The translations under genes were made by a program, and so were the position numbers. The notes below the pieces were generated by a model. The model did not search any database and was not told the origin of the DNA. It saw nothing but the letters and a program-made list of their open reading frames with translations. From a virus, in IMG/VR virus record IMGVR_UViG_3300032323_003914, positions 1 through 20,944 of that record: 20,944 nt of DNA; one strand, written 5' to 3'. Of the stretch, positions 174 to 14,208 are shown piece by piece. Within the stretch, counting starts at the first letter, position 1, and every line of letters starts with the position of its first letter.

Positions 174-1964
174 ATGATATTTGGTTACCTAATGTTGGTG
201 ATAGCGATCACCATTTCTGCAATCGCTGCTTGGTATTCAGTCGCTGGTCTCATTGCCATTTTTAGTGCAGCGGCCATACCAGTCATGATCATGGGCGGTT
301 CGTTAGAAGCTGGTAAAATTGTTGCCACAGTTTGGCTACACAACAATTGGCAACGAGTCAGTTGGGCATACAAGAGCTATCTTGTACCTGCTATTGTAGC
401 ACTTATGCTGTTGACCAGTATGGGTATCTTTGGTTTCTTGTCAAAAGGACATGCCGATCAAAGTATTGTAAGCGGCGATGCAATGAGCAAGGTCGCTATT
501 TTTGATGAGAAGATCGCCTCTGAACGAGAAAATATAGCACAGGCCAAACGAGCATTAGAGCAAATGAATGCTCAGGTAGACCAAATGTTGAGTCGCACAG
601 ATAGTGAGCGTGGTACTGACAAAGCAGTTGTAATACGTAAACAGCAAGCCAAAGAACGTGCCGCACTACAAGCCGAAATAACAAAGAGTCAAAAAGCCAT
701 ACAACAATTGCAAGCGGAACGAGCGCCATTGGCCGCTGAGTTTAGAAAAGTAGAAGCCGAAGTCGGGCCCATCAAATATATTGCAGCACTAATTTACGGT
801 GACAATCCTGATCAGAACTTGTTAGAAGCAGCAGTACGTTGGGTAATTATTCTTATTGTTGTAGTATTTGATCCATTGGCCCTATGCTTGATCCTTGCTG
901 CCAACAAACAACTAGAATGGGCAAGGCAAGGTCGTGGTGGTTGGGTTCGCGACGAGGAACCTGCTGCAAAATATCCAGCCGACGATGGTCCACTAACAGC
1001 CACGCAACTTGAACAGGTACAAAAATCAGCCGAAGAATCAGTTTGCCCAAAATGTAAAACAGTGTTGGTAGATGCCACAGGTATCGGTCCTTTCTGTCCC
1101 AACAAAGAATGTGATGTGGCCGATGGCCCTGACCTACACAAGAACACAGCCGCTAGCCCAGAAGAGCTTTTTGATCAAGCTAAAGCGATAGAACAACAAC
1201 TTGATGCCGAAACCAAACAAAAACTAATTGAACCCGAAGATGAGTTGTCTCGAGACGAGATTGAACAAATACGATTAGACGAAATAAACAAAGAACTAGC
1301 AGCCATTGAGCCTAACGAAGAACCTGTTGTTGAAGTAGTTGAAGAACCTGAACCTATTATTATTAGTGCAGAAGAAAAAGCTCTATTGGATAGTGCAGGA
1401 GAAATTATTAATGAACTTAACAATGAAGTGGTTTCGAAAACTGCCCACATAGCAAACGTCGAAGCACAGTACAATCAACTGCAAAATGACTCAATACACT
1501 GGTTGCAGGAACAGCAGCGTATACAGGAACAACTCGAAGAACTTGATGCTGCCCGTAATGTTGAAAAACAACGTGCGGACAATTTGCAGGCACAACTAGA
1601 TGAACTATTGGTGGTCGATCAACCAGAGGAAGTGAGTGTCAATCTAAGCCCGGCAGCAGACAATGCACCCAATCTAAAACGAGTTCCGGTGTCAAGTTTT
1701 GGTATAGAGTTTCCTGCAGATCCAGAAAAAGGTGATCTGTACCTAAGAACAGATTACTTGCCTTCGAAGTTATTTAAATACAACGGCGATCGTTGGATCG
1801 AAGCAGATAAAGCTAGAACAGATACATACACTTACAACGATCAATATATTGAATTTTTGATCGAAAAATTAAAATCAGGCGAGTACGATACTGAAGATAT
1901 CAACGAAGCCGAACAAGAACAAATAGCTCAATACTTACAGGAAAAAAATGGCAACAGATCTTGA
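174..1964 (+). CDS. large membrane protein with coiled coils and a zinc ribbon
   Basis: A 596-aa protein of unknown function. Hydrophobic segments lie at about residues 5-27, 28-45 and 68-90. A charged coiled-coil stretch (about 105-190) leads to a fourth membrane segment at about 222-243. A zinc-ribbon-like module follows, with C291 and C294 (CPKC) and C308 and C313 (CPNKEC). Next come a long acidic, Glu/Gln-rich coiled coil (about 325-485) and a compact C-terminal domain (about 505-590) rich in aromatic and acidic residues. I recall similar C-terminal domains in large membrane proteins of marine T4-like phages, but no function is established. Predicted location is the inner membrane, with the zinc ribbon and tail on one side. 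There is no clear Shine-Dalgarno before the ATG; it has its own sigma70-like and late-like promoter. Its end overlaps the next gene by 17 nt. Confidence 0.8.
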   Translation: MIFGYLMLVIAITISAIAAWYSVAGLIAIFSAAAIPVMIMGGSLEAGKIVATVWLHNNWQRVSWAYKSYLVPAIVALMLLTSMGIFGFLSKGHADQSIVSGDAMSKVAIFDEKIASERENIAQAKRALEQMNAQVDQMLSRTDSERGTDKAVVIRKQQAKERAALQAEITKSQKAIQQLQAERAPLAAEFRKVEAEVGPIKYIAALIYGDNPDQNLLEAAVRWVIILIVVVFDPLALCLILAANKQLEWARQGRGGWVRDEEPAAKYPADDGPLTATQLEQVQKSAEESVCPKCKTVLVDATGIGPFCPNKECDVADGPDLHKNTAASPEELFDQAKAIEQQLDAETKQKLIEPEDELSRDEIEQIRLDEINKELAAIEPNEEPVVEVVEEPEPIIISAEEKALLDSAGEIINELNNEVVSKTAHIANVEAQYNQLQNDSIHWLQEQQRIQEQLEELDAARNVEKQRADNLQAQLDELLVVDQPEEVSVNLSPAADNAPNLKRVPVSSFGIEFPADPEKGDLYLRTDYLPSKLFKYNGDRWIEADKARTDTYTYNDQYIEFLIEKLKSGEYDTEDINEAEQEQIAQYLQEKNGNRS

Positions 1965-3637: not shown

Positions 3638-5521
3638 ATGAGTACAATCATCGGTATCGATCTAGGTACCACCAATAGCTGCGTAGCAGTTGTCGAAAAC
3701 GGAACCCCAAAAGTAATTGAAAATTCAGAAGGAGCACGTACTACTCCTAGTATTGTCGCATATGCTTCTGACGAAATTCTTGTTGGCGCCAGTGCTAAAC
3801 GTCAAGCTGTAACCAATCCACGAAATACCGTCTATGCTGCTAAACGACTAATTGGTCGTAAATTCAAAGAACAAGCAGTTCAAAAAGATATTGACCTAAT
3901 GCCATATACTATTATGGAAGCCACAAATGGTGATGCATGGGTTCGGGCGAATGACAAAGAATTGGCACCTCCACAAATTAGTGCAGAAGTTCTTCGCAAA
4001 ATGAAAAAAACTGCCGAAGACTATCTTGGTCATGAAGTAACTCAGGCAGTTATTACTGTCCCGGCATATTTTAATGACAGTCAGCGACAGGCTACTAAGG
4101 ACGCAGGGCAAATTGCAGGCTTAGAAGTCCTGCGTATCATCAATGAGCCGACCGCAGCGGCCCTGGCTTATGGAGTAGACAAAAATGAAAAAACGGATCG
4201 TAAAATTGCTGTTTATGATCTTGGTGGTGGTACCTTTGATATATCTATTATCGACATCGCTGTTGTGGATGGTGATAAACAATTCGAAGTACTTAGTACC
4301 AATGGGGATACATTCCTTGGAGGTGAGGACTTTGACCAAAGAATAATGGACTATCTAATCACTGAATTCAAAAAGGAATCCGGTGTTGATCTATCTAAAG
4401 ATGTTATGGCACTACAGCGACTAAAAGAAGCTGCTGAACGTACCAAGATCGAACTATCCAATAACACACAAACGGATGTTAACTTGCCTTACATCACTGC
4501 TGATGCTACAGGACCTAAACATCTAAATATCAAAATTACTAGAGCCAAATTTGAAAGTCTAGTAGAAGATCTTATTCAACGCTCAATTGATCCTTGCCGG
4601 ATTGCTATGAAGGACGCAGGCGTAACTGCTGCTGATATTGACGAAGTTATCTTGGTCGGTGGGCAGACACGCATGCCTAAGGTACAAGAAGCAGTTGAAC
4701 AATTGTTTGGTAAGGCACCACGTCGTGATGTTAATCCGGATGAAGCAGTAGCGGTAGGAGCAGCAGTACAAGGTGCTGTTTTAGGTGGCGACCGTAAAGA
4801 CGTTCTACTACTTGATGTGACCCCACTAAGCCTTGGTATTGAAACCATGGGCGGAGTGATGACAAAACTAATACAAAAGAACACCACAATACCAACTAAA
4901 AACAGTCAGGTGTTCAGCACAGCTGAGGATAATCAGCCTGCAGTTACTATCAAAGTCTATCAAGGTGAACGTGAACTTGTACAATATAATAAACTATTAG
5001 GCGAATTTAACTTGGAAGGAATTCAACCTGCTCCAAGAGGTGTGCCACAAGTAGAAGTCACGCTGGATGTTGATGCAAATGGTATTCTTAAAGTAAGTGC
5101 CCGAGATAAATCTACAGGCAAAGAAAACAAGATTACTATCAAGAGTGACAGTGGCCTAAGTCAAGAGCAGATTGCAGAGATGATTCGCGATGCTGAAGCC
5201 AATGCCGATGCTGATAAAAAACAACGCGAGTTGATTGATACCAGGAACCAAGCGGATGCAGTTGTCCATAAGGTTCGCACTGATCTAAAAGAAGTTGAGG
5301 GCAAACTGTCAGAGGATCAGACGAAGCAAATTAACGATAAAATACGTGAACTAGAAGAAACAGTAGCAGGCACAGACCAAGAAGCAATTACATCCAAATT
5401 GTCAGAATTGATTGTTGCTGCCAATGCAATTAACGAAGTAAAGCAACCAACTACAGCGGAGTCCGCAAAGCCCGATGTTGATGACACTGTAGTTGATGCC
5501 GAGTTTACAGAAAAGAAGTAA
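3638..5521 (+). CDS. dnaK: chaperone DnaK (Hsp70), full length
   Basis: A 627-aa complete Hsp70 (bacterial DnaK is about 638). The nucleotide-binding domain has IDLGTTNS (residues 7-14), [25 protein letters not shown] (194-201) and [10 protein letters not shown]. The inter-domain linker VLLLD is at 389-393, the same numbering as E. coli DnaK. The substrate-binding domain, helical lid and an acidic C-terminal tail ending EFTEKK follow, so ATP hydrolysis, allostery and client binding all look intact. It would act in the host cytoplasm, borrowing host DnaJ and GrpE, since neither is in this window. The sequence reads as proteobacterial, implying acquisition from a host. It has its own promoter region, an inverted-repeat leader and a strong AAGGAGA. 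Hsp20 and clpS genes follow. Confidence 0.97.
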
Positions 5522-5530
5522 AGAATATGC

Positions 5531-5559
5531 AGAGTAGATGCCCGGTTGGGGTCTACTCT
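5531..5559 (+). promoter_or_regulatory. hairpin between dnaK and hsp20
   Basis: AGAGTAGA (5531-5538) pairs with TCTACTCT (5552-5559). The 13-nt interior can add three further C-G pairs around a GGTT loop. No T-run follows, so it is more likely a processing, stability or regulatory element in the hsp20 leader than an intrinsic terminator. Confidence 0.5.
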
Positions 5560-5570
5560 CATATGTGTCA

Positions 5571-5597
5571 TAACTTGCTTAATGAAAGGAGACGACT
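5571..5597 (+). promoter_or_regulatory. shared chaperone leader motif and Shine-Dalgarno (hsp20 copy)
   Basis: TAACTTGCTTA (5571-5581), then ATGAA, AGGAGA and CGACT before the ATG at 5598. It duplicates the element before dnaK in sequence and spacing. Confidence 0.5.
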
Positions 5598-6035
5598 ATG
5601 ACAACCTATATCACAACTTTTGATTTACCAACTATTCACCGTCATGCTATTGGGTTTGACCGTATTATCGGTGAACTCAATAGAACTTTTGCAAACAGCA
5701 AAGGTGATAACTATCCACCACACAATGTAATTCAAGTAGAAGAAAACAAATATGTAATCGAAGTGGCTGTGGCAGGTTTTGCAGAAAACGAACTTGACGT
5801 TGAATTAAAAGAAAATCTTCTAATAATTCGCGGCGACAAAGCCAAGAAAGATGAAGAAAGGCAATACCTACACAGAGGTATTAGCTCACGTAACTTCAAC
5901 AAAACTTTTCCACTAGGAGAAAGTATCGAAGTGCGTGGTGCTACAGTTAGAGACGGCATCCTGTCGATCAACTTAGAACAAGTTATTCCTGAGGAAAAAC
6001 TGCCTAAGAAGATTGCAATTACCTTCGCTAAGTAA
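5598..6035 (+). CDS. hsp20: small heat-shock protein, IbpA-like (Hsp20)
   Basis: A 145-aa ATP-independent holdase with an alpha-crystallin domain. It resembles E. coli IbpA along its length: AIGFDRI near the N-terminus, YPPHNV, the AVAGFAENELDV stretch, a LLIIRG strand, RNFNKTF, VRGATVRDG and a C-terminal IAI that fits the I-x-I oligomerisation motif. It would hold unfolding proteins for refolding by Hsp70 systems, so its position directly after dnaK makes functional sense. A strong AGGAGA supports the start. The leader repeats the dnaK leader motif, and a hairpin terminator follows the stop. Hsp20 genes are common in T4-like cyanophages; pairing with a phage dnaK is much less usual. Confidence 0.93.
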   Translation: MTTYITTFDLPTIHRHAIGFDRIIGELNRTFANSKGDNYPPHNVIQVEENKYVIEVAVAGFAENELDVELKENLLIIRGDKAKKDEERQYLHRGISSRNFNKTFPLGESIEVRGATVRDGILSINLEQVIPEEKLPKKIAITFAK

Positions 6036-6049
6036 TATAATGTAACAAC

Positions 6050-6076
6050 AGCAGGGGAAACCTCCCCTGCTTCTTC
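6050..6076 (+). terminator. terminator after hsp20
   Basis: AGCAGGGG (6050-6057), a 6-nt loop, then CCCCTGCT (6064-6071): a perfect 8-bp GC-rich stem followed by TCTTC. The T-run is short and mixed, so termination may be partial. It separates the chaperone genes from clpS. Confidence 0.6.
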
Positions 6077-6087
6077 AAACAGATATC

Positions 6088-6396
6088 ATGACTACTGAAA
6101 CTATTGTACGCCCCAAGATCGCTCCTAAAACAAATATTCCAGAACCAAGTTTATACAATATCATTTACATAAATGATAATCAGACAACAATGGAATTTGT
6201 TATTGAAAGTTTGAAGGCAGTGTTTAATTATAGCGATGAAGCTGCTGCGGATATTACTATCAAAATTCACGAAGAAGGGTCTGCGGTTGTGGCCACATTA
6301 CCCTACGAAATGGCTGAACAAAAAGGTATCGAAGTCACACTGTTGGCAAGAAACAATGGATTTCCGTTGAATGTTAAACTGGAAGTAGCAGAATGA
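6088..6396 (+). CDS. clpS: ClpS-like N-degron adaptor
   Basis: A 102-aa ClpS homolog. In bacteria ClpS binds N-terminal Leu, Phe, Tyr or Trp and hands the substrate to ClpAP. The pocket is preserved: N29-D30 in INDNQTTMEF (E. coli N34-D35), the gate-like M35 (E. coli M40) and H61 in KIHEEG (E. coli H66). The N-terminal extension is short and Pro-rich, as expected for the ClpA-contacting arm, and lacks the first 15 or so residues seen in E. coli. No ClpA or ClpP is present here, so it would work through host ClpAP, either redirecting degradation or competing with host ClpS (inference). Only a weak Shine-Dalgarno precedes the ATG. The next gene starts in an ATGA overlap. Confidence 0.88.
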   Translation: MTTETIVRPKIAPKTNIPEPSLYNIIYINDNQTTMEFVIESLKAVFNYSDEAAADITIKIHEEGSAVVATLPYEMAEQKGIEVTLLARNNGFPLNVKLEVAE

Positions 6397-7956: not shown

Positions 7957-7993
7957 CTGTGAAAGAAATACCGCGGTTCCTTAAATAATAATA

Positions 7994-8063
7994 AAGGAGC
8001 CGGATTCAAATAATAAAAACTTCAATATTTTGCTCCTTGAAAACTGGTCAATGACCTAGGAGC
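7994..8063 (+). promoter_or_regulatory. leader with competing Shine-Dalgarno / anti-Shine-Dalgarno pairings
   Basis: GCTCCTT (8032-8038) can pair with upstream AAGGAGC (7994-8000, 7 bp) or with the real ribosome-binding site AGGAGC (8058-8063, 6 bp). A small hairpin GGTC-AAT-GACC (8046-8056) lies between. The two long pairings are mutually exclusive, so the leader could switch ribosome access to the secreted-protein gene at 8068. No known riboswitch family is recognised. Confidence 0.35.
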
Positions 8064-8067
8064 TAAC

Positions 8068-8529
8068 ATGAAAAAGTTTTTACTTGCAGCAGCAGTTGTT
8101 TTAACATCTACGGCGGCATCTGCCAACGATCCAATTGTTACAGATTCAACCTCTCGCAGTGTTGTAGAATCTACCACCACAGTTAAATCACCTCCCCCTA
8201 CCGCAGTAGCACCTGCCGTAACTACACTAAACAACGACCTTTGTGCTGTAGCGGCCAGCGGCGCTGTACAAACACAAATATTTGGTGTATCAATCGGAAA
8301 AACTTTTGTAGATAAAAACTGCGAAAGATTAAAGTTATCTAAAACACTGTTTGACATGGGTATGAAAGTTGCTGCGGTTGCAGTGATGTGTCAAGATGAA
8401 CGTGTGTTTACTGCCATGATGAATGCAGGCACACCTTGCCCAGTAGACGGCAAAATTGGTGAAGCAGCTAGAGAAATTTGGGATGCCAATCCTGCCCGTA
8501 TGCCGCAAACTGTCAAGAGCAAGGACTAA
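8068..8529 (+). CDS. secreted protein of unknown function
   Basis: A 153-aa protein with a classic Sec signal peptide: MKK, a hydrophobic core, then ASA before the mature N-terminus NDPIV (cleavage near residue 19-20). The mature part has a Ser/Thr/Pro-rich linker and then a compact domain containing SGAVQTQIFGVSIG, a Cys-Glu-Arg-Leu stretch (NCERLKLSKTLFDMGMKVA), MCQDERVF and GTPCPVDG. The four Cys residues of the mature protein could form disulfides in the periplasm. I recall related proteins in T4-like marine phages, always unannotated. The leader has the competing-pairing structure described separately. The stop overlaps the next start (TAATG), so it is coupled to the large secreted protein. 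Confidence 0.82.
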   Translation: MKKFLLAAAVVLTSTAASANDPIVTDSTSRSVVESTTTVKSPPPTAVAPAVTTLNNDLCAVAASGAVQTQIFGVSIGKTFVDKNCERLKLSKTLFDMGMKVAAVAVMCQDERVFTAMMNAGTPCPVDGKIGEAAREIWDANPARMPQTVKSKD

Positions 8530-10892
8530 TGAAATACCTGGTTGCGCTATTGATAGCGTTCGGTATTGCTTCGGCCGGTGCTCAAACAGTTGAAGTTACT
8601 CCCAATGCAATTACTTCGGGTACTACACATACCTGGACCGGGGTCACCACAGGTTCATTGCCTGCAAACGCTATGCCTGGTGGACCTACTCCACTATATG
8701 ATCCTGCTACTAATACTATCCACTTCAGTTACAGTAATGCTACTGTGGCTCAAACATTTGTAATCAATCGTATATTAAGTGGCACAGGTATTCAGATCAA
8801 CGGGTACGATTGGTCTTGGCAAATTAACAACAACAATTACGACAACAGGCAAGGTAATGTTGACACACTAACTGCTAGTATATTAACTAGAAACTCGTCA
8901 AATTTTACAGTTCACACTTTTTCACAAACATATAACACCAAATTTGATTGGACTACATTTTCGGGCACACGAACCTATCCCACACCCTATCAGTTGTCGG
9001 GACTTAATAACATAAGGGTGCAGTTTAGTGGTACTGATAGTGGATTTTGGGGCGGTTACTTTGGTCCACAAATCAGAAACGTGAGTATAGGATTAAACTA
9101 TTCCGTCGATCCTTGTGCAACAAATCCGGCATACTCGCCCTCCTGTGCAAACTACAATACCGTTAGCATCAGCGATAATTTACTATCCGGTACTACCGGC
9201 GCACAAGCTTATGCAATCAACTCTGCGTTGGCCGCGGCCGGCGCAGGAGCGATCATTCACGGATTCAATTATGGTTATAACTACAATGTGAGTTCAAGAA
9301 ATTGTGCCGTTTGGAATTTGTTTGGTATATGTATAAGTGGTTGGAACTATTCCGATGCTGGTGTTAATACAGCTTTAACTAACAGCGCCGGAACAACAAT
9401 TTACACAGAAAATAATACACATAATGGTGGCGATAATGGCACCAGCGGAACATACTCTAAGCAGTACAGATTGAGTTCAAGTGTTCCTATGTCAACCCTT
9501 GGAACTTTTAGCATGAACCCATGGACGTCGGGCAATGCAAGTATCACAAACATGTATAGCAGTGCAGTTTATACAGCAGATCCATGCGTAATCAATCCTC
9601 TATCTAGCACAAGTTGCCCAGGATACGCCGCGGCCCATTACACACAACAATGTAGTGTTAACGCATTATATGATTCTGGTTGTCCAGGATATGCTCAAGC
9701 TTTGTTCACACAACAGTGCAATGCCAATCAATTGTCGAATCCTGCTTGTCCTGGATATGCTGTGGCATATTTAAATTATCAATGTTCGATAAATTCTTTA
9801 TACAGTACAACATGCTCTGGATATTCAACTGCACTAGTTCAATGCAGTACAAATCCACTGGGTAATCAGTTGTGTCCTGCATATCAGACTGCTAGCACAC
9901 AATGTTCTGCTAATCCGTTATATGGATCATACTGTCCAGGATATGCTACTGCTGTTGCTGAATGTAGTGCTAATCCACTATCTCATAGTTATTGTCCTGC
10001 ATATCAAACGGCCAGCGCCAGTTGCTCGGCAAATGAACTAACATATTCTTATTGTCCTGGGTATACCGCAGCACAGACCACATGCTCAATTAATCCATTA
10101 AGTAATAATCTATGTGCCAATTACCAAACGGCCACTACACAATGCTCGGCTAGTCCTTTGTATGCTACGTACTGTCCAGGATATGCATTTGCTTATTCAT
10201 GTAGTCAAGACGGTTTATATAGCAATCAATGCCCGAACTATGCAGAAGCCTATGCCAAGAAGAATATATTAAACATTGGATCTACAACCACAACAACTAC
10301 TACATCAACTATGGTACTAGCACAGTCATCTGACCCTGCAGCACAGGCAGCACCGTTAGTAGCTGATCCTGTTGTTAACAGCGTAGTGACCACAAGAAGC
10401 ACAGCAACCACCAGCGAAACTAATCCTGCTGCTGTGGTCAAATTAACTGCACCTGCAGCCGCTACCACTAGCCCAGCGCCCGCAGAAGAAAAGAAGTCTG
10501 ACTCCAAGACAGACACAGCACAATCTGCCAAAGCCGAAGATAAACCTGCAGGTAAACCACAAACTGCAAGAGAACAATTGGCTGAACAGCGCAGAGAAGC
10601 GGCTCGAAAAGAAGCAGTAGCCAAAGGCAAAGATCTAGCAAACGATATAGGCAAGGCAGCAGACATGCAGGCCCAAATGGAAGTGCAAAATGTAGTACTT
10701 CAAGCCATGGGGTACAGCCCTGGCTTTGACAATTATGGCAGGTTCATACTACCTGATGGTATCGGTTACCGTCCATATACAATCTATAATAATCAACGAA
10801 CTGTAGATACCCCTGCAGGGCGTGGATTGTTTGGAGGTAGCGACAGCGTTCACCAACGCATGGTCGATTCACAATATAACTTAGGAAATTAA
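8529..10892 (+). CDS. large secreted cysteine-repeat protein
   Basis: A 787-aa exported protein of unknown function. Its Sec signal peptide is MKYLVALLIAFGIASAGA, with cleavage near residue 18. Two beta-rich, Asn/Thr/Gly/Trp-rich domains follow (about 20-190 and 212-350), lectin- or adhesin-like in composition. Each ends in a DPC motif (C196, C353). From C353 about eleven tandem units of C-x9-C-P-x-Y run to about residue 578. After a Thr-run and a low-complexity Ala/Thr/Pro linker come a charged helix (about 675-730) and a conserved-looking C-terminal domain with AMGYSPGFD, GIGYRPYTIY and DTPAGRGLFGG. The ATG at 8529 was chosen because it starts the signal peptide and overlaps the previous stop. 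It may be a periplasmic or cell-surface protein, possibly an adhesin or barrier (inference). Confidence 0.85.
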   Translation: MKYLVALLIAFGIASAGAQTVEVTPNAITSGTTHTWTGVTTGSLPANAMPGGPTPLYDPATNTIHFSYSNATVAQTFVINRILSGTGIQINGYDWSWQINNNNYDNRQGNVDTLTASILTRNSSNFTVHTFSQTYNTKFDWTTFSGTRTYPTPYQLSGLNNIRVQFSGTDSGFWGGYFGPQIRNVSIGLNYSVDPCATNPAYSPSCANYNTVSISDNLLSGTTGAQAYAINSALAAAGAGAIIHGFNYGYNYNVSSRNCAVWNLFGICISGWNYSDAGVNTALTNSAGTTIYTENNTHNGGDNGTSGTYSKQYRLSSSVPMSTLGTFSMNPWTSGNASITNMYSSAVYTADPCVINPLSSTSCPGYAAAHYTQQCSVNALYDSGCPGYAQALFTQQCNANQLSNPACPGYAVAYLNYQCSINSLYSTTCSGYSTALVQCSTNPLGNQLCPAYQTASTQCSANPLYGSYCPGYATAVAECSANPLSHSYCPAYQTASASCSANELTYSYCPGYTAAQTTCSINPLSNNLCANYQTATTQCSASPLYATYCPGYAFAYSCSQDGLYSNQCPNYAEAYAKKNILNIGSTTTTTTTSTMVLAQSSDPAAQAAPLVADPVVNSVVTTRSTATTSETNPAAVVKLTAPAAATTSPAPAEEKKSDSKTDTAQSAKAEDKPAGKPQTAREQLAEQRREAARKEAVAKGKDLANDIGKAADMQAQMEVQNVVLQAMGYSPGFDNYGRFILPDGIGYRPYTIYNNQRTVDTPAGRGLFGGSDSVHQRMVDSQYNLGN
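9585..10262 (+). repeat. tandem cysteine-repeat array within the secreted protein
   Basis: Eleven in-frame units of the pattern C-S-x-N-x-L-x4-C-P-G/A-Y. The period is 66 nt for the first three units, 60 nt for the next six, and 57 nt before the last. The units differ at the DNA level, so this is an old protein repeat rather than a recent tandem duplication. Two Cys per unit suggest an intra-unit disulfide and an extended solenoid-like rod. Confidence 0.85.
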
Positions 10893-10893
10893 A

Positions 10894-11559
10894 ATGTCAG
10901 AAAACAACAAAAATATCGACGAAAAAGTAGACGAACTTGAAGCAGCCAAGGAAAAATACCTTAGCGAAAATACAGTAATCAGCATCGGCGGATATGCATT
11001 TACTCCAGCCAAGCTCATGATAGCAGCCACGATTGTGAGCACAGTGCTAGGTGGTCTTTACGGAGCGTTTGAAGTATACAAAGACTACATGGACATGAAG
11101 CAGAAAATTGCCGACTATGTTACTCCTGATCTAGGAGAAGTCTACAAGAAGTTGGAAGTGCTTGAAGCCAACACCAACAAGACTGTTGAGTACAGCCAAG
11201 ACATTAAAAATGATCTAAAAGCTGATATTCGTAGACTTGAAACAGTAGTTGAAAGTGTAGAACGTGACAGCAAGGTAGCACAACGTGACACTGACAAGAG
11301 TGTACAGGATGCTAGAAAAGATGTACGCGATACTAAACAAGAAGTTGACAAAATCACTCGTCAGCTTGAAAAAGATACAGCTACCCAAAACAAAGATCTA
11401 CAAAGAGTAGTTGATGCTAGTACCAAAGAATTACAAAAAAATGTAGACTCTGCTGTGCGTCAGATGCAACGAGAAAACGAGCAGGAGATCAAACAATTAC
11501 GTAAGGAATTAGACGACAAGATTAAAAAAGCATTAGATAATCCACTTGCAAACAAGTGA
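10894..11559 (+). CDS. membrane-anchored long coiled-coil protein
   Basis: A 221-aa protein with a soluble acidic N-terminus, a single membrane segment at about 38-58 (KLMIAATIVSTVLGGLYGAF), then about 150 residues of heptad-like charged sequence dense in Asp, Lys, Glu and Arg, predicted to be one long coiled coil. There is no signal peptide and no lipobox, so it is not an obvious spanin. It starts 1 nt after the large secreted protein's stop, with an AGGA Shine-Dalgarno inside that gene's end. It is flanked on both sides by exported proteins, so it may span the periplasm or act as a scaffold for them (inference). Confidence 0.78.
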   Translation: MSENNKNIDEKVDELEAAKEKYLSENTVISIGGYAFTPAKLMIAATIVSTVLGGLYGAFEVYKDYMDMKQKIADYVTPDLGEVYKKLEVLEANTNKTVEYSQDIKNDLKADIRRLETVVESVERDSKVAQRDTDKSVQDARKDVRDTKQEVDKITRQLEKDTATQNKDLQRVVDASTKELQKNVDSAVRQMQRENEQEIKQLRKELDDKIKKALDNPLANK

Positions 11560-11569
11560 TACATACTAT

Positions 11570-11911
11570 ATGAAGAAAATGTTAGCTGCCATCTTACTGG
11601 CTACTACAGCTCTGGCAGCTACAGCCGAACCCAGAACGCGGCAAGTTCGCATGATGTGTGGCAGTTTCGATGAAGCAGAAATTACCACACAACGATACGG
11701 CGAAAAACTCATCATGGCCACTCAAAGTCCCAATGAGCAAACTGTTAATTTGGTATATGTTAACTTTGATACACAAACTACCAGCTGGTTCATACACGAT
11801 TTACAAACAGATGAGTACTGCATGATGGGTGTAGGCAATAAACTTTATATACCAGATGACAGTCCTCTAAACAAAGAGATCACATTTGGAACTAAAATAA
11901 TATACAAATAA
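11570..11911 (+). CDS. small secreted protein
   Basis: A 113-aa protein with a Sec signal peptide: MKKMLAAILLATTALAATA, then EPRTRQ, so cleavage is near residue 19. The mature domain (about 94 aa) is beta-rich, with one Cys near its start (MMCGSF) and one later (EYCMMG) that could form a disulfide, and carries TTSWFIHDLQ. No family is recognised. The ATG at 11570 begins the signal peptide; an upstream in-frame TTG at 11546 would place charged residues ahead of it and overlap the previous gene. It is the last gene before a strong terminator, so genes 8068-11911 form one likely operon of exported or membrane proteins. Confidence 0.78.
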   Translation: MKKMLAAILLATTALAATAEPRTRQVRMMCGSFDEAEITTQRYGEKLIMATQSPNEQTVNLVYVNFDTQTTSWFIHDLQTDEYCMMGVGNKLYIPDDSPLNKEITFGTKIIYK

Positions 11912-11934
11912 ACCTGGAAATTCCAGGTTTTTTT
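11911..11934 (+). terminator. Rho-independent terminator
   Basis: AACCTGGAA (11911-11919) and TTCCAGGTT (11921-11929) form a 7- to 9-bp stem directly at the stop codon of the small secreted protein, followed by a run of seven T bases (11928-11934). This is the clearest intrinsic terminator in the window and ends the exported-protein operon. Confidence 0.88.
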
Positions 11935-12028: not shown

Positions 12029-12178
12029 ATTCTATTCCAACTTGGCTTTTTTGTTCTCGAGCAAATAAGTACTAATAAGTTCGATAACCATTGGTCCATC
12101 AAAAAACAATTATAAAGGATCAAAGATGTTTAGCCCATTATACAGGGTTATTAAATTTTCAAACGGGCGGCGGTGACG
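12029..12178 (+). CDS. short region with a 16-aa leader ORF (12126-12176)
   Basis: From 12029 to 12113 I see nothing but AT-rich spacer with no convincing promoter or hairpin. At 12126 an ATG preceded by AAAGGA (6 nt spacing) opens a 16-residue ORF, MFSPLYRVIKFSNGRR, whose TGA (12174-12176) overlaps a GTG in the frame of the next gene (GTGA). It may be a leader peptide that couples translation to the membrane protein downstream, which has no Shine-Dalgarno of its own, or a real microprotein. Confidence 0.4.
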
Positions 12179-12958
12179 ATGGATCCGTTAACCCTCTTTG
12201 CCCTCGCTAACGGAGCGGTCAAACTTGTAAAAGAAGGCTGTAAACTTTACAAGGATATCAAAGGAGCAGCCGGGGATGTCAAGGATGTGCTCAAGGACCT
12301 CGACGACCAATTCAATAACAAATTTCGAGACCGAGCACCCACAGTTGCCGAAAAGAATCAGTACGTCACCGAAAAAAATCGTATAATTGAATTAAACAAA
12401 AAATCTGGTGACACCACCAATATCTACACAGAAATAGGCCAGCAGTTGGGTGCTTATTTTGACAATTATTATAAATGTTTTGCAATATTTGAAGAAGAAG
12501 AGCGCCGTAGCAAGACTGAAGTGTACCACGGTGAAGATAGTTTAGGTAAACGTGCATTGCAGCGTGTTCTACTCAAAAAACAATTGGAACACATGAGCGC
12601 AGAATTGCGTGAAATCATGGTTTATCAAAGCCCACCTGAACTGGGTGCATTGTGGACTGATGTAGAAGAGATGATGAAAAAAGTTGGCAAAGAGCAAGCA
12701 GGAGCTATTGCCATAGAAATGAGACAAAAGGCAATTCAAAATAAAATAAAAGCCCGTAAGAAAAAAATATTAAAATATCGTATCGCATGTTGGAGCATCA
12801 CGACAATTGGAATATTGTATTTTGTTTGGTTAGTTTGGTCGATAGTTCAAATAAGGATCGAACATAGTCCTGAATTAGGTAGATGCCTTATCCCAAAAGG
12901 CAGTGCAGTTTATAATTGGTATAATAATTTAAAGTGGATTGATTGTGAACCAAAATAA
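12179..12958 (+). CDS. membrane protein of unknown function
   Basis: A 259-aa protein (261 aa if the overlapping GTG at 12173 is used). The N-terminus MDPLTLFALANGAVKLVKEG is amphipathic, followed by long charged helices (DIKGAAGDVKDVLKDLDDQF and others), a Tyr-rich segment near NYYKCFAIFEEEE, and a basic stretch leading to one clear membrane segment at about 205-225 (ACWSITTIGILYFVWLVWSI). The short tail ends with a CEPK-type C-terminus, and two Cys follow the membrane segment. No enzyme motif is visible. It is probably a tail-anchored inner-membrane protein with a large helical cytoplasmic domain. It lacks its own Shine-Dalgarno and follows the 16-aa ORF. I recall similar proteins in environmental T4-like phages. 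Confidence 0.75.
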   Translation: MDPLTLFALANGAVKLVKEGCKLYKDIKGAAGDVKDVLKDLDDQFNNKFRDRAPTVAEKNQYVTEKNRIIELNKKSGDTTNIYTEIGQQLGAYFDNYYKCFAIFEEEERRSKTEVYHGEDSLGKRALQRVLLKKQLEHMSAELREIMVYQSPPELGALWTDVEEMMKKVGKEQAGAIAIEMRQKAIQNKIKARKKKILKYRIACWSITTIGILYFVWLVWSIVQIRIEHSPELGRCLIPKGSAVYNWYNNLKWIDCEPK

Positions 12959-13452: not shown

Positions 13453-14208
13453 ATGATTTATAAATTTTTAATATTTGCCTTGGCTGCACTTGCTCCGATG
13501 TCCTCTAATGCCGCTGCCATTTCTGCCAAGTCTTGGTTGATTGCCGATGGCGACGGAAACATACTAGAAGAAGAAAATATCAATATTCAACAGCCAATAG
13601 CCAGCATTACCAAATTAATGACCGCAATGGTCATACTAGATGCTAATGAAAATCTAAAAACCCCACTAGCAAAAAAACTCAGAGGATTGACAGTTACTAG
13701 AGAGCAATTATTAGATCTAGCAATTATCAAATCAGATAATCAAGCTGCAAAAATGTTGTGCGAGCTGTATCATCGCGGATATCAACAATGTATAGATGAC
13801 ATGAATCATAAAGCACAAACGTTAGGAATGTATAATACCAGATTCAAAGATAGTAGCGGGCTCGACAATGGAAATGTAAGTACACCTAGAGATTTAATCA
13901 AATTACTACTCGCAGCCGAACGGTATTCGGAAATAGTTCATGCCAGCAACCAAAGCGTAGGTGAAATATTGAGATCTAAGAAGAAAAAGATCTTGAAGTG
14001 GCGCTATACAAATACCAACCCTCTCGTGGCCAAATATAATGTGGTAGTTAGCAAAACTGGTTATGTACGTGCCAGTGGTGGCTGCTTGGTAATGAGTGTT
14101 ATGATCAAAAACGAAAAAAAACTTTTCGTTGTTTTAAACAGTAACACAACCAGGACAAGAATACGTGATATGGAAACCTTAATAATTTCAACATTACATA
14201 CGCAATGA
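13453..14208 (+). CDS. D-alanyl-D-alanine carboxypeptidase/endopeptidase, peptidase family S11
   Basis: A 251-aa penicillin-binding-protein-type serine peptidase that cleaves peptidoglycan stem peptides or cross-links in the periplasm. All three active-site motifs are intact: S51-I-T-K54, S94-D95-N96 and K201-T202-G203. A signal peptide (MIYKFLIFALAALAPMSSNAAA) directs export. FKDSSGLDNGNVSTPRDL is typical of the S11 family and resembles PbpG/PBP7 D,D-endopeptidases. The protein is short because it stops after the catalytic domain, with no C-terminal membrane anchor as in DacA. It starts 5 nt after the small membrane protein and overlaps the next gene by 4 nt (ATGA). Roles could be lysis, local wall remodelling or infection exclusion; lysis would need a Sec route rather than a holin. 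Confidence 0.9.
   Translation: MIYKFLIFALAALAPMSSNAAAISAKSWLIADGDGNILEEENINIQQPIASITKLMTAMVILDANENLKTPLAKKLRGLTVTREQLLDLAIIKSDNQAAKMLCELYHRGYQQCIDDMNHKAQTLGMYNTRFKDSSGLDNGNVSTPRDLIKLLLAAERYSEIVHASNQSVGEILRSKKKKILKWRYTNTNPLVAKYNVVVSKTGYVRASGGCLVMSVMIKNEKKLFVVLNSNTTRTRIRDMETLIISTLHTQ

Follow-up and report, generated by a model that had tools for sequence, protein, structure and literature searches.

Two-component spanins, such as Rz/Rz1 of phage lambda and gp18.5/18.7 of T7, are the closest described counterparts of the locus treated here, and canonical spanins require a lipoprotein. Spanin-less phages have been documented by Kongari et al., who did not consider other topologies and left the question open (PMC6139136). 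Here we describe three adjoining genes, A, B and C, in a 20,944-nucleotide stretch of viral DNA, a 20.9-kb fragment of IMG/VR record IMGVR_UViG_3300032323_003914 that we call the window. The same trio occurs in the same order in about 100 sampled, very different aquatic phages, and none of the family libraries, structure searches and papers that we found gives a description of it. We regard the trio as representing a novel type of conserved phage system with an unproven function, because it lacks the lipobox that defines spanins and the defining features of spackle, curli and chaperone-usher systems, and we put forward a spanin-like action for it. The window most likely derives from a T4-like phage, as its relative L003, on a 137-kb contig, encodes the T4-type major capsid protein gp23, which was also found in 6 of 19 other records tested. 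The locus comprises the following features.

8068..8529, plus strand: gene A, open reading frame (ORF) of 153 amino acids (aa) with a signal sequence (aa 1-20), a low-complexity linker and a helical domain; cysteines at 59, 85, 108 and 124
8529..10892, plus strand: gene B, ORF of 787 aa with a signal, two jelly rolls, a Cys-repeat stalk, a linker and a conserved C-terminal segment
10894..11559, plus strand: gene C, ORF of 221 aa with a membrane helix (aa 41-59), a coiled coil and the C-terminal sequence NPLANK
11570..11911, plus strand: gene D, ORF of 113 aa, predicted to be exported, lineage-specific
11910..11930, plus strand (usable on both strands): terminator-like hairpin of 9 pairs with a T tail

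The initial annotation described an operon of four exported or membrane proteins closed by a strong terminator. ORF calls confirm the four reading frames, which are co-oriented and closely packed, A and B overlapping in TAATG and gaps of 1 and 10 nucleotides separating B from C and C from D. The exported or membrane nature of the products is likewise supported at the level of prediction: Sec-type signals are predicted at the N-termini of A, B and D (cleavage at ASA-N, AGA-Q and ATA-E, judged by eye), and C has no signal peptide and a single predicted hydrophobic helix, followed by a long coiled coil. Inspection of the sequences of A, B, C and D revealed no lipobox. A hairpin is indeed present at the end of D; its strength is ordinary, and such sites are no commoner in the region than in shuffled sequences. 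The neighbourhood also runs on beyond it, with a gene family termed E lying at most 3 kb from the cassette in 28 of 102 loci.

Like the inner-membrane subunits of two-component spanins, C combines an N-terminal membrane helix with a periplasmic coiled coil, in an orientation that is predicted, and in some phages the trio has lysis-region neighbours, occupying a T7-like gene slot in phage S28-C10. Unlike these spanins, it shows no sequence similarity to Rz and has A and B, both large exported proteins, in place of a lipoprotein partner. Thus C has the predicted topology of an i-spanin (N-terminal membrane helix, periplasmic C-terminal domain), whereas neither A, B nor D bears the lipobox of an outer-membrane lipoprotein that characterises an o-spanin; the combination of a lipobox and a C-terminal membrane helix in one protein, typical of unimolecular spanins, is also missing from A to D. 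The Rz family PF03245 was not found above the cut-off in 18 records, and the one sub-threshold match, in HTVC033P, falls in another, larger ORF and gives no lambda-type Rz there. A resembles T4 spackle and RI, periplasmic proteins of superinfection or lysis inhibition, as a small exported disulfide-containing phage protein; it differs from them in the lack of any sequence or fold match and in being followed by B and C. The identification of A as spackle was rejected after negative profile and Foldseek searches, the spackle family of PHROG reaching only E 0.46. With the curli/type VIII secretion genes of pelagiphages (PMC9599517) the trio shares the character of an exported multi-gene module common to podoviruses and T4-like pelagiphages. 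No CsgG was found in the 18 records, which include the window and of which several, like the window, are fragments, and this candidate was likewise set aside.

The conservation of the trio was assessed from a profile search with A alone, which gave at least 600 matches in IMG/VR, and a further 20 contigs binned into bacterial and archaeal genomes. The loci studied are the best-scoring 80 of the at least 600 plus others, some of them near-duplicates, and the figures therefore describe conservation, not abundance. A C-type gene, recognised by its membrane helix and an NP[LM] ending at the C-terminus, lies 0.5-3.3 kb 3' of A in 93 of the 98 loci whose sequence extends 3.5 kb or more beyond A, versus 5 of 3018 background ORFs of that size; the linkage of A and C exceeds chance. 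On inspection, four of the five misses (L017, L113, L130, L131) possess such a gene outside the filters, which leaves the N4-like phage JWAlpha as the sole true miss. Relatives of B in IMG/VR (n=28) have A on their 5' side and C on their 3' side wherever the flanks are present. The refuting condition named at the outset, that the genes never occur together in other phages, is contradicted by these data, and the order A-B-C is extremely constant. D does not share in this. It is found only in the close relatives L004, L006, L009 and L013, and because A-B-C is kept throughout, the conserved unit is A-B-C and not A-B-C-D. The initial proposal of an undescribed system of exported proteins stands in this respect, with three genes rather than four.

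The helical domain of A has four invariant cysteines, conserved in an alignment of 80 relatives, and this domain is the only part of A modelled with confidence by AF2. Its conserved part matches PHROG 20531 (phrog_20531, E 3.7e-17), which resembles it in sequence and is a family without assigned function. Neither the profile search of the PDB nor Foldseek matched A to any solved structure, spackle included, by sequence or fold, and the viral structure library returned uncharacterised relatives only. Some relatives of A have a C-terminal hydrophobic segment.

B had been described as a Cys-repeat protein, which is true of only a part of it. The repeats are preceded by two jelly rolls, and a disordered linker joins them to a conserved C-terminal segment:

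8589..9578, plus strand: jelly-roll domains 1 and 2 (aa 21-350), a carbohydrate-binding-module-like fold (AF2, Foldseek)
9585..10262, plus strand: stalk (aa 353-578) of 11 helical units of about 20-22 aa, with one C-x9-C pair per unit (AF2)
10719..10877, plus strand: conserved C-terminal segment (aa 731-783), from the alignment of 54 relatives

The closest solved folds of the jelly rolls in Foldseek are the CBM22 tandem 4xup (E 3.5e-7) and the sugar-binding domain of Fbs1, and Klebsiella phage Kp7 gp52 is matched as well. In the 54 relatives the C-terminal segment is kept (consensus GFxxY..PD..IY..Q..VDN....LxGxSDxxHxEMVxxQY) and the upstream domains vary widely. C shows a similar pattern. Among 23 divergent relatives it has just two invariant residues, N216 and P217, both close to the C-terminus, with D79 and L218 being nearly so. 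No family for either B or C was present in the family libraries. We interpret the conserved ends on the otherwise variable B and C as suggesting an interaction surface.

Some loci carry additional genes between or after those of the trio. Six loci (L015, L016, L044, L050, L053, L056) have a tandem pair of C genes, each ending in NPL, whose products possibly form a hetero-oligomer. In about 25 loci (e.g., L067 11371-12670 and L106 3528-4799) three extra exported genes stand between a short B and C. By eye these intervening genes appear pilin- or chaperone-like; a chaperone-usher system found no support in Pfam, in PDB profiles or in a search for ushers, and no usher exceeded the cut-off in the 18 records. 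A small protein with an N-terminal hydrophobic stretch and the motif RYPCQDPxNW is encoded 3' of C in L019, L044, L050, L053, L056, L059, L061, L088, L100 and L118. The small proteins after C were considered as lipoproteins of the o-spanin type and rejected, because a lipobox is present in L118 alone and the other nine members of the cluster have a hydrophobic N-terminus without one.

Among named phages, the genes A, B and C correspond to gp54, gp53 and gp49 in HTVC115P, to gp46, gp45 and gp44 in HTVC033P, to gp45, gp46 and gp48 in HTVC023P, to gp24, gp25 and gp26 in HTVC202P, to genes 1, 3 and 4 in Baldr and to genes 202, 201 and 200 in the T4-like Mosig (all Pelagibacter phages). The trio is also present in the Autographivirid MedDCM-OCT-S28-C10 (S28-C10) and, with a different exported middle protein, in the Roseobacter phages CRP-207 and CRP-810. 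The assignment of B and C in phages as distant as these drew on position, architecture and end motifs: tblastn matched only the C of HTVC115P and no B, so that the B relatives of pelagiphages are identified by position, architecture and the C-terminal motif recognised by eye. The carriers comprise T4-like phages, Autographiviridae, other podoviruses and tailed pelagiphages, and because these groups are unrelated, the cassette either moves between phages or is very old. Without B and C, A is found in JWAlpha, JWDelta and Agrobacterium phage JP1. Almost all deposited labels of the trio genes read "hypothetical"; the remainder are "carbohydrate binding domain" on two B proteins, the unrelated "OmpA" and "DUF2730", and "lysozyme" on CRP-207 gp73 (L037 3292-3873) and CRP-810 gp51 (L038 7165-7587), which despite this label have the layout of C with a membrane helix, a coil and an NPL end.

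The T4 late-promoter motif TATAAATA precedes A by at most 150 bp in 28 of 135 loci, compared with 37 of 1399 other genes of the same loci (p ~2e-14). It is absent upstream of A in the window and its close relatives, in which two other elements precede the gene:

7981..7987, plus strand: TTAAATA, invariant in nine close relatives
8032..8063, plus strand: leader hairpin in which the Shine-Dalgarno sequence (AGGAG) of gene A is paired; z-score in the window, -2.5

It is possible that TTAAATA represents a late-promoter core. The z-scores of the leader hairpin range from -0.9 to -4.2 in six sequences, and its inner stem is kept in close relatives though the sequence differs. In some T4 genes, leaders that pair the Shine-Dalgarno sequence limit translation to late transcripts, and the hairpin of A resembles such leaders. 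A scan for sigma-70 promoters found sites no more often than in shuffled sequences.

Proximity to a lysis cassette, expected of two-component spanin genes, varies. It is clear in L106, HTVC023P, HTVC033P and Mosig, the endolysin gene is distant in Baldr and HTVC202P, and overall an enrichment is observed. In L106 the order is portal, A, a B-like gene (B'), three more exported proteins, C, a holin_3_6-like EF-hand membrane protein, a phrog_2524 membrane protein and a GH108 endolysin. Mosig gp203, adjoining A, is a GTA_holin_3TM protein; in Vibrio phages, genes for its relatives overlap with those for lysozyme. An M15 peptidase comes immediately 3' of C in HTVC023P, and an amidase lies upstream of A in HTVC033P. 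The cassette of S28-C10 lies between the tail-fibre and terL genes, the slot of holin, Rz and Rz1 in T7; in Baldr and HTVC202P the large terminase gene comes after C. Across 102 cassettes, members of six hydrolase families were counted 22 times in the 538 kb that lie within 3 kb of a cassette and 13 times in the 753 kb farther away (p 0.009), and S11 carboxypeptidases nine times versus twice. Holin-like families (34 within 3 kb versus 4 farther) and the E family (28 versus 0) were defined from the neighbourhoods themselves, and these figures are for that reason biased upward. Both an E gene and an S11 gene follow the cassette in the window:

12173..12958, plus strand: gene E, 261 aa, with an MDPLT start and a C-terminal membrane helix; the family often follows C
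13453-14208: exported D-alanyl-D-alanine carboxypeptidase (Peptidase_S11, 8.6e-40)

E is homologous to gp60 in the lysis region of HMO-2011, a phage in which tblastn found no A. Upstream in the window (174-1964) is a 596-aa multi-helix membrane protein, DUF4407-like, whose family, possibly a fourth component of the system, lies upstream of A, often directly, in 34 of 139 loci. Positions 3638-6396 contain a phage DnaK gene (HSP70, 9.6e-261) and, after it, genes recognised by eye as Hsp20-like and ClpS-like, an arrangement kept in some relatives.

Of the roles offered initially, a periplasmic assembly or envelope remodelling fits best; the lysis stage, to which the neighbourhood points, had not been named. 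We tentatively favour the reading that A-B-C is a late, exported complex that spans the Gram-negative envelope and aids in breaking or fusing its layers at host lysis, spanin-like in function without being a canonical spanin; the formation of a complex, its topology, glycan binding and the role in lysis are what we infer here. The support is indirect and comes from the constant gene order in unrelated phages, the lysis-gene neighbours, the late-promoter motif before A, the i-spanin layout of C, and the lack of an above-threshold PF03245 match and of a convincing lipoprotein in the phages scanned. C would be the inner-membrane component, with an N-in helix, a periplasmic coiled-coil rod and an NPL tip gripping a partner, and its partners on the periplasmic or outer side would be B and the disulfide-domain protein A. 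The C-terminal segment of B would serve as the assembly end and the Cys-repeat stalk would provide reach, while the exchangeable jelly rolls may bind a host glycan, either peptidoglycan or outer-membrane polysaccharide. After the endolysin has cleared the wall, the complex would act on the two membranes, either joining or disrupting them. The wider suggestion of a new class of envelope-disruption machine, lipoprotein-free and three-component with a lectin-bearing stalk, that would carry out the final lysis step in many spanin-less aquatic phages, is more doubtful.

No convincing lipoprotein emerged from a scan of the complete genomes of HTVC202P, Baldr and S28-C10 and of the larger portions of CRP-207, HTVC023P, HTVC033P and HTVC115P, by an approach that recovered T7 gp18.7 and lambda Rz1. 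The matches in cassette phages were antisense ORFs or of 31-32 codons, of which a 32-codon ORF in HTVC202P and a 31-codon ORF in CRP-207 might conceivably encode one. Several observations weigh against a lysis role. HTVC019P and HMO-2011, which have no cassette, also lack a lipoprotein; its absence is consequently weak evidence for replacement, and the view that it proves replacement of a spanin was rejected. No lipobox is present in A, B or D. In HTVC115P, gp52 is a second gene for a transmembrane helix and coil, related to HTVC019P gp54, and a rival i-spanin candidate there. A is an orphan in JWAlpha, JWDelta and JP1, the first two of which were reported with an Rz-like gene (PMC3915230). 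The endolysin genes of Baldr and HTVC202P are distant from the cassette, no more than 22 of the 102 cassettes have a recognised hydrolase other than S11 within 3 kb, SleB hydrolases show no enrichment nearby, and the holin-like and E counts carry the upward bias noted above. The lectin-like domains of B, finally, equally suit a surface or exclusion role.

Such a role is the alternative that survives best, though we consider it rather unlikely. Here A and B would be exported late, the glycan-binding domains of B at the outer membrane would mask receptors, block incoming DNA or cause infected cells to stick, and C would anchor them. The carbohydrate-binding-type folds are consistent with this, as is a highly variable N-terminal half of B on a constant C-terminal end, which is expected of a ligand-binding part; the solitary copies of A in JWAlpha, JWDelta and JP1 are remote from lysis genes, and pelagiphages carry another surface-fibre system in curli (PMC9599517). 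The enrichment of the late promoter and the lysis-gene neighbours argue in the opposite direction, as do the failure to find an outer-membrane anchor and, in the 18 records, an usher or CsgG. Exclusion genes, moreover, are usually early-acting.

It is improbable that the genes control lysis timing, with A (and B) as periplasmic regulators that bind holin or endolysin in the manner of T4 RI, and C as their membrane partner. A small exported disulfide domain beside holin-like genes, which can occur without B and C, would suit a regulator, but the large, multi-domain B exceeds a regulator's needs, A matches no solved protein, spackle included, and several cassettes are far from the endolysin. A virion or virion-assembly function, in which B is a fibre or decoration protein and A and C its assembly factors, is quite improbable despite the frequency of jelly rolls in tail fibres, the Kp7 gp52 match and the position of the HTVC115P cassette in a structural region, since proteins assembled in the cytoplasm would not be expected to have signals, as A and B do in almost every relative, or a membrane helix, as C does, and the virion gel bands of JWAlpha and JWDelta, of limited sensitivity, did not report the orphan A (PMC3915230).

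The trio recurs in metagenomic phage contigs as well as in cultured SAR11 and Roseobacter phages, where its genes are nearly always annotated as hypothetical and two, in CRP-207 and CRP-810, are presently labelled lysozymes. If it acts at lysis, the question of how spanin-less phages proceed becomes testable for some common aquatic phages; if it serves instead in exclusion or surface display, it would be an equally widespread undescribed system.

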